From Bradyrhizobium sp. 195 (GTDB lineage: Bacteria; Pseudomonadota; Alphaproteobacteria; Rhizobiales; Xanthobacteraceae), in the NCBI RefSeq assembly GCF_023101665.1, contig NZ_CP082161.1:8042501-8106500 (forward strand): a stretch of DNA of 64,000 nucleotides. Reading direction: 5' to 3'. The notes beneath the pieces were generated by a model. The model was not told the origin of the DNA, made no database searches, and saw nothing but the letters and a program-made list of their open reading frames with translations. Positions 34,128-39,894 of this stretch are shown piece by piece; within the stretch, counting starts at the first letter, position 1, and each line of letters opens with the position of its first letter. Both the position numbers and the translations under genes were made by a program.

Positions 34128-35110
34128 GAACCTTCGCTTATCAGCGCGTCGCCGATCAGGCTTCGGCCCTGTCCGCCGCGGCCGCCGGACCCGTCCGCTA
34201 CCTCGGTGGTGGCACCAATCTCGTCGATCTGATGCGACAGAATATCGAGGCGCCCCAGGCGCTGGTCGATGTCTCGCGCCTGCCGGCCGAGATCATCGAA
34301 ATGCCGGACGGAGGCCTCAAGATCGGCGCGGCGGTGCGCAACAGCACGCTGGCTGCGCATCCCGCCGTGCGTGCGCGCTATCCGATGCTGTCGCGCGCGT
34401 TGCTGGCCGGAGCCTCCGCGCAAATCCGCAACATGGCGACGGTCGGGGGCAACATCCTTCAGCGCACGCGGTGCGCCTATTTCTACGATGCGGAGGGCTC
34501 GCACTGTAACAAGCGCGAGCAGCATGCCGGCTGCGACGCCATCGGCGGCTTCAACCGCTATCATGCGATCCTTGGCGCATCGCCGCACTGTATCGCCACC
34601 CATCCATCGGACATGTGCGTCGCGCTTGCGGCGCTCGATGCGACGGTTCATCTCGCCGGCGACGGAGGCGAGCGCAGCGTCGCTCTGACCGATTTCCATC
34701 GCTTGCCGGGCGAGACGCCGCAGATCGAGACGGTCCTGCATCCCGGCGAACTGATCACCGCGATCGAGCTGCCGCCGGGCCCGGCGGCCGCGCGCTCGAC
34801 CTATCGCAAGGTCCGCGATCGTTCGAGCTACGCATTCGCGCTGATATCAGTCGCAGCCGGTGTAGATGTCGTCGACGGAAAGATCCGGGATGTCCGGATC
34901 GCGCTCGGCGGCGTGGCCGCCAAGCCATGGCGCGCGCGGCAGGCCGAGAAAATGCTGCTGGGCGAGGCGCCGACGCCGGATCGCTTTCGTGCATCGGCCG
35001 ACGCCGAACTGGCGGCAGCCAGCACGCTTGACGGCAATACCTTCAAGGTCGAGCTCGCGAAGCGGACCATCGTGGCCGTGCTCGCCCAACTGACAGGAGC
35101 GGACGCATGA
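34124..35110 (+). CDS. FAD subunit of the molybdenum oxidoreductase, with extra Fe-S loop (PaoB-like)
   Basis: 328 residues. FAD-binding motifs are RYLGGGTNLVDLM near residue 26 and RNMATVGGNILQRTRC near 105. Between the two FAD motifs and the C-terminal domain lies a cysteine-bearing loop, RCAYFYDAEGSHCNKR followed by AGCDA, the type that holds an additional [4Fe-4S] cluster in PaoB. It overlaps both neighbours by ATGA, so the three subunits are translated together. Confidence 0.9.
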
Positions 35111-37425
35111 GCAAGCTGCAGAATGCGATCGTCGGCGGCGTCCGCGCCGCGATGGGCTACGTTCCCGGCAGCTGGCTGCCGGGCGGCACGCCGGATCCGC
35201 TGATCGACAAGCGGGTCAACCTCGGGACGCAGCAGTCGCGCATCGACGGCCCCGACAAGGTGAAGGGCGCCGCTCGCTTTGCGGCGGAAGTTCCCATGGA
35301 AGGGCTGCTCTACGCGGCTTTCGTCCACTCCACGATCGCGCGCGGACGCATTGCCCAAATCGACGTCGCTGCCGCCGAGGCGGCGGACGGCGTGGCGCTG
35401 GTGATGACCCACCGCAACGCCCCGAAAATGGCACTGCCGCCGCCGATCGGCCTGACAAATCTGAAAGCCGCCGGCAACAACATCCTGTCCGTGATGCAGG
35501 ACGCGGAGATCCGCTGGAACGGCCAGACGGTGGCCGTCGTGCTCGCACGGACGCAGGAACAGGCGAACTTCGCCGCGTCGCTGGTCATCGTCCGCTACGA
35601 GCCGGTCGCTGCGCGGACGGAGTTCGAGGCCGGCAAGGCGAATGCCCGCACGCCGGATTCGTTGATGATCGAGCGAAACCGGCTGAAGAAGGGCGATGCG
35701 GATACCGCATTCAGGACAGCAGCCACCGTTGTCGATGCCGTCTATCGCACGCCCTGGGAAAGTCACAGCCCCATCGAACCCCATGCTGCGACCATCCGTT
35801 GGGACGGTGACCGGCTGATCGTGCATGACGCCACCCAGATGTTGAACGGCACGGCCGGTTCGCTGGCAAAGGTGTTCGACATCAAAGAGGCGCAGGTCTT
35901 CGTCAGCTCGCCCTTCGTCGGCGGTGGCTTTGGCGGCAAGGGATTGTGGGATCATCAGATCCTCGGCGCCGCGGCGGCAAAACTCGCAAAGCGGCCAGTC
36001 CGGCTGGTGTTGTCGCGGGCCAGCATGCAGCGCCTCGTCGGCGGCCGTTCGCAGACCGAGCAACGCGTGGCGCTCGCGGCCGACCGCGACGGCAAGCTGA
36101 CGGCGCTTCTTCATCACGGCTATTCGGTCAAGCCCGCGCACAGCGTGACCGACGAGGCGTTCACGCTGACCAGCCGATCGCTCTACGCGGCAGGAAGCTT
36201 CGACATCGTGCAGCACGCCATCGACCTCGACCTGCTCGCCAACACGTTCATGCGCGCGCCGGGCGAGGCGCCAGGGACGTTCGCGATCGAGAGTGCGATG
36301 GACGAGCTGGCGCATGAACTTCAGATCGACCCGATCGAACTGAGGCGTCGCAACATCGGCCACGCCGATCCGGTCAGCGGTGCGCCGCATTCGCAGAGTG
36401 ACCTGATGCTGGCCTACGAGCTCGGCGCGAAACGCTTCGGCTGGGAGCGCCGTCCATCCAGACCGCGTTCGAGCAAGGAGGGCGAGTGGCTGGTTGGTAT
36501 GGGATGCGCGTCAGGCTCGTTTCCCTACGTGCGGATGCCGGGCATGTCGGCCCGGATCACGATCGACACCGATGGTCGCGCGACCGTGGCGAGTGCCGCG
36601 CACGAGATGGGCATGGGTACGGCAACCGTGCAGCGGCAGCATGCCGCCGATCGTCTCGGACTGCCGCTCGACCGCGTCACCGTTCGGATCGGCGACACCA
36701 GCCTGCCGTTCGGTAGCTTCGCCGGCGGTTCGTCGCAAACGGCGTCGCTTGGCGCAGCGATCAACGCGGCGAGCACGAAGCTCGCCGGCGAACTGCTGCG
36801 CCTGGCCGGCAACGACACGCCGCTGGCCGGCCTGCGGGCGAACGAGATCGAATTCGCCGATGCAGGTTTGCGCAAGGTCGGCGATCCGTTGCGCCATGAA
36901 AGCTTCGCATCGATCCTCAAGCGGGCGGCGCGCAGCGAAATCAGCGTCGTCGGCGAAAGCTCGGCGCCCCTGGAGGTGCTGAAATTCTCGATGCACAGCC
37001 GGTCCGCGATCTTCTGCGAATTGCGCGTCAGCGAGGTGACGGGGGAAGTGCGCGTCGACCGTCTCGTCGGGTCGTTCGATTGCGGTCGCATCCTCAATCC
37101 GAAGACAGCAGCCAGCCAGTTTCGCGGCGGCATGATCATGGGACTAGGCATGGCGCTGACGGAAGAGACCCTGCTCGATGAGCGCAGCGGGCGGATCATC
37201 AGTGCGTCCATCGCAGACTATCATATCCCGGCCCATCTCGACGTGCCCGAGATCGACGTGTTGTGGACCGATATTCCCGATCCTCGCACTCCGATGGGCG
37301 CGCGCGGCATCGGCGAGATCGGCATCGCGGGCGTCGCTGCGGCGATCGCGAATGCCGCGTTCAACGCCACCGGCAAGCGCATCCGCGATCTGCCGATGAC
37401 GCCGGACAAGCTGCTGTTGGCTTGA
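35107..37425 (+). CDS. Molybdopterin-binding catalytic subunit (PaoC-like)
   Basis: 772 residues. Cofactor-binding signatures include FVGGGFGGKGLWDHQ and MRAPGEAPGTFAIESAMDEL, and the active-site Glu lies in GARGIGEIGIAG near the C-terminus. It forms an alpha-beta-gamma complex with the two upstream subunits and hydroxylates aldehydes or N-heterocycles using water. The sequence type is nearer aldehyde oxidoreductase than xanthine dehydrogenase, but the substrate is unknown. No XdhC/PaoD-type maturation gene follows, so cofactor insertion must rely on a chaperone encoded elsewhere. Confidence 0.9.
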   Translation: MSKLQNAIVGGVRAAMGYVPGSWLPGGTPDPLIDKRVNLGTQQSRIDGPDKVKGAARFAAEVPMEGLLYAAFVHSTIARGRIAQIDVAAAEAADGVALVMTHRNAPKMALPPPIGLTNLKAAGNNILSVMQDAEIRWNGQTVAVVLARTQEQANFAASLVIVRYEPVAARTEFEAGKANARTPDSLMIERNRLKKGDADTAFRTAATVVDAVYRTPWESHSPIEPHAATIRWDGDRLIVHDATQMLNGTAGSLAKVFDIKEAQVFVSSPFVGGGFGGKGLWDHQILGAAAAKLAKRPVRLVLSRASMQRLVGGRSQTEQRVALAADRDGKLTALLHHGYSVKPAHSVTDEAFTLTSRSLYAAGSFDIVQHAIDLDLLANTFMRAPGEAPGTFAIESAMDELAHELQIDPIELRRRNIGHADPVSGAPHSQSDLMLAYELGAKRFGWERRPSRPRSSKEGEWLVGMGCASGSFPYVRMPGMSARITIDTDGRATVASAAHEMGMGTATVQRQHAADRLGLPLDRVTVRIGDTSLPFGSFAGGSSQTASLGAAINAASTKLAGELLRLAGNDTPLAGLRANEIEFADAGLRKVGDPLRHESFASILKRAARSEISVVGESSAPLEVLKFSMHSRSAIFCELRVSEVTGEVRVDRLVGSFDCGRILNPKTAASQFRGGMIMGLGMALTEETLLDERSGRIISASIADYHIPAHLDVPEIDVLWTDIPDPRTPMGARGIGEIGIAGVAAAIANAAFNATGKRIRDLPMTPDKLLLA

Positions 37426-37547: not shown

Positions 37548-37637
37548 TGGCGGAGAGGGAGGGATTCGAACCCCCGATAGGCTTGCACCTATGCCGCATT
37601 TCGAGTGCGGTGCATTCAACCACTCTGCCACCTCTCC
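37548..37637 (-). tRNA. tRNA-Ser (anticodon CGA)
   Basis: On the minus strand a 7-bp acceptor stem GGAGAGG/CCTCTCC closes the molecule, with G as the discriminator and an encoded CCA. The anticodon stem-loop CCGCA-CTCGAAA-TGCGG gives CGA. A long variable arm (GCATAGGTGCAAGCCTATC) and a GGTTCGAAT T-loop fit class II tRNA-Ser. Length 90 nt. Confidence 0.96.
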
Positions 37638-38058: not shown

Positions 38059-39189
38059 TTACTCCTTGTCGTTCTTACCTTTTTTCTTCCCGTTCTCCGT
38101 GGAATCCCGGTCCTTGCCGTTGCCGTTCTCCTTGCGGCGGTTGGTGAAGCGCGCATTGCCGAGGCCAGTGCCGATGGTGAGCACGCCCCAGCGCTGGAAA
38201 TCCTGCATGAACGGCACTTCCGAGAGGCCCTGAACCACGCCGTCATTGTGCATCAGGACCGCGGTGTCGTGCTCGCCGATGACGGGGATGGCTTCGACGA
38301 GGCTCGCCGGCAGGTTGAACTTGCTGCTCTCCCAATTGCCCGGCAGGTTCTGCGCGCCCTTCTCGATGGAGCCGTCCTTGTTGATCACGCCGGGACAGGC
38401 GATGCCGATGAACGGCGCGAGCTTGAAGCCTTCGGCCGCGGCGTCCTCGATCAGGCCTTCGAGCATCTTGACCAGCCGCTTGACCGCGGCTTCGCGGCTC
38501 GGCTCGTCATCGGCGTGGCGCCACAGGTCGGATTTGAAGACGACCGCCTTGGACAGATCAGGCGCCTTCTTCCAACGGGTCTCGACGATGCCGCAACGGA
38601 TATTGGTGCCGCCGATGTCGACCGCGAGGATGCTGTCATAGGCCTCGAAAATCCAGGACGGTGCGAGGTGCAGGGCCCCGATCAGCCCGGCATCGTCGGG
38701 ATCGAAGCGGATCGGCACCAGGTCGACCTTGAAGCCTTCCGATTTCAGGATGATCTCGGCCCGGGCAATGGAAATCTCGCCCAGCCTGGAGGCCCGAAAG
38801 CCGCCGCCGACCACGATGCACTCGGTCTTGGCCCAAGCCTTGGTCTTGAGAAACCGCCGCGTGACGTAAGCCAGCTCCTGCGCAAAATCCTCGATCGCGC
38901 TGTGCACCACGGCGGTGGCCTCGGTATCGTCGCCGACCAGAACGGCATCGAGGACCTTCTTGCTGATCTTGTCGGACGGCTCGTCGCCGAAGGGATCCTC
39001 GCCGCTCTTGCGCAGCGGCTTGCGCCACGCCTCGAGAATCTCGCGAAACGCCCCCTTGCTGGCGCGGTCGCCGAGAAAGCCGTCCTCGTCCTTGATCTCG
39101 ATGTTGAAACTGTCGACCTCGACAGACGGCAGGCGGCCGGCCCCGTGCTGGGCGATGCCCGTCGTCTTCACCAATTCGTCTGTTGCCAT
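38059..39189 (-). CDS. ROK-like sugar kinase family protein with circularly permuted motif order
   Basis: 376 residues from ATG 39189. ROK motifs are all present but in a rotated order. Residues 95-175 match the normal C-terminal lobe (FAQELAYVTRRFLKT, CIVVGGGFRAS at 124-134, DDAGLIGALHLA at 165-176). Then comes the normal N-terminal phosphate loop AVDIGGTNIRCGIVE (189-203), ACPGVINKDG (264-273), a GEHDTAVLMHNDG stretch (305-317), and finally the second phosphate loop TIGTGLG (338-344). A 30-residue Lys/Glu/Asn/Gly-rich tail ends the protein. The GH...C-x-C zinc site of many ROK kinases is not seen. It may be a permuted kinase or a non-catalytic relative. It stands alone. Confidence 0.8.
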   Translation of the reverse strand: MATDELVKTTGIAQHGAGRLPSVEVDSFNIEIKDEDGFLGDRASKGAFREILEAWRKPLRKSGEDPFGDEPSDKISKKVLDAVLVGDDTEATAVVHSAIEDFAQELAYVTRRFLKTKAWAKTECIVVGGGFRASRLGEISIARAEIILKSEGFKVDLVPIRFDPDDAGLIGALHLAPSWIFEAYDSILAVDIGGTNIRCGIVETRWKKAPDLSKAVVFKSDLWRHADDEPSREAAVKRLVKMLEGLIEDAAAEGFKLAPFIGIACPGVINKDGSIEKGAQNLPGNWESSKFNLPASLVEAIPVIGEHDTAVLMHNDGVVQGLSEVPFMQDFQRWGVLTIGTGLGNARFTNRRKENGNGKDRDSTENGKKKGKNDKE

Positions 39190-39317
39190 GATAACCCTTG
39201 CCCGCATGTCCAATTTGCGAGGACAACGGGGAGGGAACCCGTTGGTTGCAAACCGGCTGCAGATTCGGCCGATGCGTTGGAAGGCAGGCCAAATCCTTCA
39301 AATCCCGGCAGTTTTCC

Positions 39318-39507: not shown

Positions 39508-39894
39508 ATGTTCGCAGTCATCAAAACCGGCGGCAAGCAATACCGCGTCGAGCCGGATGATGTTCTCGAAGTAGGCAAGATCGAAGGCGAAGTCGGCTCG
39601 ATCATGCAGTTGAATGAAGTGCTGGTCGTCGGCGGCGACACGCCGGTGCTGGGCATTCCGACGGTCGCAGGCGCGTCCGTTGCGGTCGAGGTGCTCGACC
39701 ACAAGCGCGGCCCCAAGGTCATCGCGTTCAAGAAGCGCCGCCGCAAGAATTCGCGCCGCAAACGCGGCTATCGCGACGAGATCACGGTTCTGCGCATCAG
39801 CGAGATCCTGACCGACGGCGCCAAGCCCACCAAGGGCCCGCGTCCGAAGCGGGAGAAGGTGGCGAAGGAGCCGGCAGCGGAAGCCGCCGAATAA
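39508..39894 (+). CDS. rplU: Large ribosomal subunit protein L21
   Basis: 128 residues, starting MFAVIKTGGKQYRV, the highly conserved L21 N-terminus, with KVIAFKKRRRKNSRRKRGYR as the rRNA-binding basic stretch. About 25 acidic/basic residues extend the usual C-terminus (KPTKGPRPKREKVAKEPAAE), as in other alphaproteobacteria. GGAG lies 8 nt before ATG. It is the first gene of the rplU-rpmA unit. Confidence 0.97.
   Translation: MFAVIKTGGKQYRVEPDDVLEVGKIEGEVGSIMQLNEVLVVGGDTPVLGIPTVAGASVAVEVLDHKRGPKVIAFKKRRRKNSRRKRGYRDEITVLRISEILTDGAKPTKGPRPKREKVAKEPAAEAAE

Follow-up and report, generated by a model that had tools for sequence, protein, structure and literature searches.

In ordinary ROK proteins the DxGGT motif comes first in the chain, and GGG, together with a GLIGA-type end, comes last; DxGGT, the ND pair, GTGxG and GGG serve ATP binding and catalysis, and GExGH and CxCG...C contact the sugar on one side and bind a zinc ion. 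Among enzymes, circular permutation is seldom seen in nature. We describe here a gene at 38059..39189 on the minus strand of a 64,000-nucleotide stretch from Bradyrhizobium sp. 195 (contig NZ_CP082161.1, positions 8,042,501 to 8,106,500; this whole stretch is the window, and its numbering is used throughout), which runs from an ATG at 39189 to a stop at 38059 and encodes a protein of 376 residues (P0002). The protein departs from the ROK linear order, and its family has the DxGGT, ND, GTGxG and GGG motifs. We consider it quite probable that it is a natural circular permutant of a ROK-type kinase with a conserved catalytic core, many of whose copies in Alphaproteobacteria are controlled by EcfG; the rotation, the fold, the conserved core and the stress-type promoter of many copies are supported computationally.

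The nearest described proteins are the ROK-type N-acetylmannosamine kinases (human GNE kinase domain, 2yhy/2yhw; E. coli NanK, 2aa4), which match the second half best in structure, head the Foldseek rows for the first half and match residues 87-176 by profile, and which have the loops and the catalytic ND in common with the permuted protein. It differs from them in being rotated and, both points being judged on a panel of ordinary ROKs, in lacking the GExGH/zinc motif and in having a 10-column insertion before HND. ROK glucokinases and hexokinases (3vgk, 3vov) match the two halves separately in structure, but relative to them, too, the protein is rotated and without the zinc motif, and its substrate perhaps differs. 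The ROK beta-glucoside kinase BglK (NF042998) is the NCBIfam model that matches most A1 members (12/17, best E 8e-11), whereas the window protein reaches 23.2 bits against a cut-off of 550 and has a different chain order. Unlike the ROK repressors (Mlc; Lmo0178, 5f7r), the permuted protein has no DNA-binding domain that Pfam could find. In the open-access literature we found no description of a natural circular permutant in the ROK family or in an actin-like ATPase/ASKHA context; PMC1079889 raises the possibility that circular permutation relates the kinase cores of one fold group, in passages that do not name ROK. The permuted family is large and seemingly unstudied, its members being named, among the matches listed, 'ROK family protein', 'putative NBD/HSP70 family sugar kinase', 'glucokinase' or 'hypothetical protein'.

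Rotated motif order and fold

An earlier note on this DNA, made from the letters alone, had read the protein as a circularly permuted ROK protein, and the motifs lie where it had placed them: VVGGGF at residues 126-131, DDAGLIGA at 165-172, DIGGTN at 191-196, ACPG at 264-267 and TIGTGLG at 338-344. By a simple motif regular expression the same order is found in 107/110 relatives, and it is therefore neither chance nor a single-genome frameshift; the three failures are due to a stray early GGG in P0154 and P0167 and to a DxGG pattern left unmatched in P0178, and these three proteins share the alignment register of the rest of the family. The ordinary order appears in 18 members of a control panel of 19 ordinary ROKs, the panel being those of 30 fetched loci that remained once nine without an open reading frame (ORF) by regular expression and two outside 250-330 residues were dropped.

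The note had also suggested aligning the two halves separately, with a first half outside the ROK C-terminal lobe as the outcome that would tell against a permutation; each half instead places at the opposite end of ROK. The Pfam ROK profile PF00480 matches residues 188-356 at its positions 2-147 of 294 (30.2 bits, cut-off 22.9), a score that assigns the protein to ROK over the N-terminal half of the profile only. Conversely, two NCBIfam N-acetylmannosamine kinase models align residues 87-176 with positions 206-286 of 291 and residues 103-176 with positions 215-286 of 288, all NCBIfam matches of the protein being far under their cut-offs, and profile-profile comparison (hhalign) puts residues ~73-178 over columns 201-299 of an alignment of ordinary ROKs (E 7e-6). 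When the family was rotated by script and aligned with the 19 ordinary ROKs, the main landmarks came into register (permuted/ordinary): DIGGTN/DLGGTK, CPG/IPG, HND/AND and GTGLGN/GTGTGGG towards the N-terminus, and VGGGF/LGGGL and DDAGLIGAL/DSSGVRGAA towards the C-terminus. The alignment is weak in the GExGH/zinc stretch, where, relative to the ordinary ROK L142, AQHGAGRLP stands over GEWGHNPLP, with GEWGH over AQHGA (13-17), and GFLGDRAS over CYCGKESC. Searched against the PDB, the family profile finds 2yhw (E 1.5e-4, profile positions 160-209), and phmmer with the window protein gives its first ROK-type row at E 0.018; the top five phmmer rows, 'Cake' chains matching within residues 265-321, were discarded as repeat artefacts.

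Residues 1-180 (38650..39189, minus strand, as are all parts of the gene) thus correspond to the C-terminal part of ROK, with the third strand of the C-lobe sheet, helices, GGG and the last helix, and residues 181-352 (38134..38649) to its N-terminal part, with DxGGT, the catalytic ND and the GTG loop. An in-frame TTG at 39213 is an alternative start that leaves this motif picture unchanged. Structure prediction yields one confident fold (predicted template-modelling score, pTM, 0.86) and not two unrelated domains, and the new termini fall directly after the second phosphate loop, as had been proposed, with strands at 333-339 and 343-350 in the model. Compared half by half, the second half superposes strongly on the N-terminal end of ROK structures and the first half, weakly, on their C-terminal end. 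The AlphaFold2 (AF2) models and these matches, the first half again being weak, show the two RNase H-like lobes with phosphate-1, phosphate-2 and adenosine motifs of the ASKHA fold, as those motifs are described in PMC1079889. The profile matches of the halves and the single predicted fold together support the proposal of a natural circular permutant of an actin-like ATPase, and we hold the rotation with an intact fold to be almost certain. The charged Lys/Asn/Gly tail that had been called unusual (residues 353-376 and stop, 38059..38133) is present and predicted to be disordered, residues 354-376 having a predicted local distance difference test (pLDDT) value <50, but it is variable and no feature of the family: between 1 and 34 residues follow N350, with a median of 7 (n=110).

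Active site and substrate

The catalytic core is highly conserved. D191, N196, N281, H314, N315, D316, G340, T341, G342, G128 and D165, as well as G193, are kept in 110/110 relatives and G194 is invariant; 109/110 have T or S at position 195, D41 is kept in 109/110, and Cys265 is the sole invariant cysteine of the family. Among the conserved sites are the phosphate-1 loop DIGGTN (38602..38619), HND (314-316; 38242..38250) with D316 as the predicted catalytic base, the phosphate-2 loop TIGTGLG (38158..38178) shortly before the chain end, and the invariant GGG (128-130; 38800..38808) of the adenosine motif. The ordinary GExGH and CxCGxxxC motifs are not retained in the family, where HGAxxLPxV and GFxGDRAS take their place and no Cys is conserved. 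In the window protein the first of these is HGAxxLPxVxVD (15-26; 39112..39147), which replaces the GExGH segment in approximate register, and the second, at 37-44 (39058..39081), aligns over the zinc motif.

From the retention of the catalytic base and N281 beside a changed GExGH/zinc segment we infer that the protein is a kinase acting on a different and perhaps larger substrate. Activity as a kinase appears reasonably likely on these residues, and by its predicted anatomy the protein is a ROK/ASKHA kinase, but one that fails two defining ROK features, the motif order and the zinc/sugar motif, and hence is no ordinary member. The changed segment sets it apart from a hexose kinase that has only been permuted, and, with N281, N315 and D316 kept, a plain hexose is probably not its substrate. 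BglK, whose name marks it as a glycoside kinase, would fit an altered or larger substrate, though weakly; that the substrate is a glycoside, a disaccharide or another osmolyte-related sugar is a guess, and one that may well be wrong. Replacement of glucokinase by the permuted protein was considered and rejected, as the host genome holds an ordinary Glk match.

Distribution of the family

The homologue survey that had been suggested finds a large family. All 8000 of 8000 scored candidates in a protein search, the best 120 of which were listed, are homologous at E<=0.001, a figure that counts homologues and not permuted proteins. Matches at E<=0.001 occur in 85/149 genomes of the same family, a few as fragments, in 13/289 genomes of a class sample (12 over most of the length) and in 39/398 of a phylum sample (22 strong, 17 over the second half only); weak matches that cover only ~178-358 (1/13 in the class, 17/39 in the phylum sample) were taken to be ordinary ROKs and left out. 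Of 72,556 plasmid records searched, 205 have a match, with Rhizobium (111) and Sinorhizobium (79) prominent and pSymB of S. meliloti 1021 included. In a midpoint-rooted tree of 58 sequences the five loci from outside the class and Variovorax P0206 form one nested clade.

Besides the window copy, the host genome has two intact paralogues (81% and 79% identical) on a 221 kb contig and an interrupted copy on a contig of 0.6 Mb (301254-301975), which matches in three pieces with stops inside one of them (L084-L086, L194). One record titled Frankia sp. RB7 (JAUEPE010000043.1) carries a Bradyrhizobium-like copy, 83% identical and beside an rplU-like ORF, and is perhaps mislabelled or contaminated. 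A plasmid record labelled 'Roseateles sp. XES5' (NZ_CP084753.1, UNVERIFIED_ORG; L110) carries an otsB-ROK pair; its betaproteobacterial label is doubtful because its ROK groups with Rhizobium/Sinorhizobium copies in the tree.

Gene neighbourhood and a possible EcfG-type promoter

Neighbourhoods and promoters were compared at 129 anchored loci, 81 in a Bradyrhizobium-type set (80 fetched and the window) and 48 others. No conserved operon partner is found across the 48. Stress-type genes recur: otsB-like ORFs in 5/48 by clustering, plus L111 by annotation, and a DUF892 gene in 4 loci; the S. meliloti copy neighbours a NAGGN-system peptidase, the XES5 plasmid copy Ku and LigD, and L209 adjoins an extracytoplasmic function (ECF) sigma gene. 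Trehalose synthesis of B. diazoefficiens is under EcfG control according to PMC8092242, and this lends meaning to the otsB neighbours. One permuted copy of high divergence (43% identical; L196) adjoins a same-strand Glk-type glucokinase ORF (PF02685, E 5.6e-66) and lies ~1 kb from an otsB-like ORF. In the window, the gene and an ORF at 39508-39894, read as rplU, diverge, and a tRNA-Ser (anticodon cga; 37548-37637, minus) stands between the gene and a large ORF at 35107-37425.

The recurrence of stress-type neighbours led to a search for the EcfG promoter, given for R. etli in PMC3892343 as GGAAC-N16-CGTT. A first, looser scan gave a site at 18/114 loci against 2.2 expected, with 15 loci not anchored. 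In the anchored set GGAAC-N16/17-CGTT lies upstream of 16/48 other loci, or 18/48 if C or T opens the second box, whereas 360 permutations of the boxes (real pair included) average 0.23 with a next best of 5; the 48 are not independent, L104/L105 being of one species and L107, L109, L111 and L189 close in the tree. The site stands 113-149 nt before codon 20 in 14/16 (L201 at 229, L195 at 263), and with <=1 mismatch a site 200-70 nt upstream occurs in 32/48 against 1.45 in shuffles. A promoter of the EcfG-regulon type is thus found outside the Bradyrhizobium-type set, although not with <=1 mismatch at any of the five outside-class loci (0/5). Of the two intact host paralogues, one has an exact GGAAC-N16-CGTT upstream and the other GGAAC-N16-TGTT.

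Upstream of the window gene is a possible EcfG-type promoter, GCAAC-N16-CGTT (39225..39249, minus), one mismatch from the consensus, whose last base lies 36 nt upstream of the first letter of the ATG. The window has no exact EcfG motif and 2 one-mismatch matches against 0.94 expected, which alone is not significant. On the promoter matches, general-stress control of many alphaproteobacterial copies seems very likely; for the window copy we infer it with only a slight leaning in its favour.

Several results weigh against this stress link. The exact GGAAC-N16/17-CGTT is found in 0/81 Bradyrhizobium-type loci, the relaxed site is lacking in 18/42 loci taken as alphaproteobacterial (including L110, whose record is labelled betaproteobacterial), no such site was found around the host nepR, and genome-wide the motif is not enriched (199 versus 198 in reversed controls). 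The link may then be incidental, the site being that of another ECF sigma factor or serving some copies only, with the chromosomal copy tied to housekeeping beside rplU: an rplU-like ORF lies on the opposite strand within 1.5 kb in 79/81 Bradyrhizobium-type loci (L075 and L078 being without a match), and in 5/48 of the others. We regard this as a real if lesser chance, since the same Bradyrhizobium-type loci, which are related by descent, have a variant, GCAAC...CGTT, as the best site in 59/81, with mostly 16-nt spacing and at about the same place, and a site by the relaxed pattern in 74/81, and since stress-type neighbours stand at other loci.

Discussion

How such a protein might have arisen and work can be pictured from the model. 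The old N- and C-termini would be joined through a short linker at about residues 176-186, and new ends would have opened in the hairpin between strands 2 and 3 of the C-lobe sheet, just past the phosphate-2 loop. Both lobes would still assemble as one ATPase fold that closes on ATP; by the roles known from ROK enzymology, DIGGTN, TIGTGLG and GGG would hold the nucleotide and phosphate would pass to a substrate hydroxyl activated by D316. The EcfG sigma factor would switch on many alphaproteobacterial copies, some beside stress genes such as otsB, and the protein would be made, at least from many dispersed copies, during the general stress response. It is tempting to go further and imagine a large, active, permuted branch of actin-fold proteins specialised for alphaproteobacterial stress, a kinase that EcfG induces and that acts on a compatible solute or glycoside, with both chain ends freed beside the active-site cleft, a tentative picture to which we give somewhat less than an even chance.

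A permuted but non-catalytic protein, an ATP-binding sensor or regulator that uses ATP-driven lobe closure for signalling, would have a precedent in the ROK repressors, which signal without kinase activity. The earlier note had also raised a non-catalytic derivative. We think it the less likely reading, because the catalytic Asp and phosphate loops are invariant: a pseudo-kinase would be expected to show relaxation where HND is kept in 110/110, and Pfam at E up to 1 reports only ROK and a weak Glucokinase, with no domain for binding DNA.

The rotation itself has results against it: rotating the sequence gave no gain in Pfam score (29.5 versus 30.2 bits native), a small ROK profile gave equal medians for rotated and native order, the second half alone took a wrong register against a narrow ROK profile, and residues 1-182 give only weak matches by Foldseek and VIA-align. 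We count the score and register results as neutral, or at worst adverse, because the methods are local and identity is low. That there is no permutation, and that a ROK N-lobe was fused to another protein whose residues 1-185 resemble the C-lobe by chance or through distant actin-fold similarity, is very improbable, for although Pfam recognises the second half only and the structural matches of the first are weak, both NanK models and hhalign put residues within 73-178 at the ROK C-terminus, in agreement with the structure, the pTM speaks against two independent domains, and the main landmarks fall into register after rotation.

We found no paper in the open-access literature that names the S. 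meliloti relative or ties ROK to EcfG, to general stress in rhizobia or to trehalose-phosphatase in Rhizobium. Locus tags guessed for the S. meliloti relative led only to arcB2, and the passages of PMC6180224 name genes that probably lie close to it but do not show the relative itself. The stress-promoter finding offers a concrete, testable role for an uncharacterised 'ROK family protein' of these model organisms, S. meliloti among them. A highly conserved, permuted actin-fold kinase would also be a natural test of how topology constrains the fold and the closure of its lobes.
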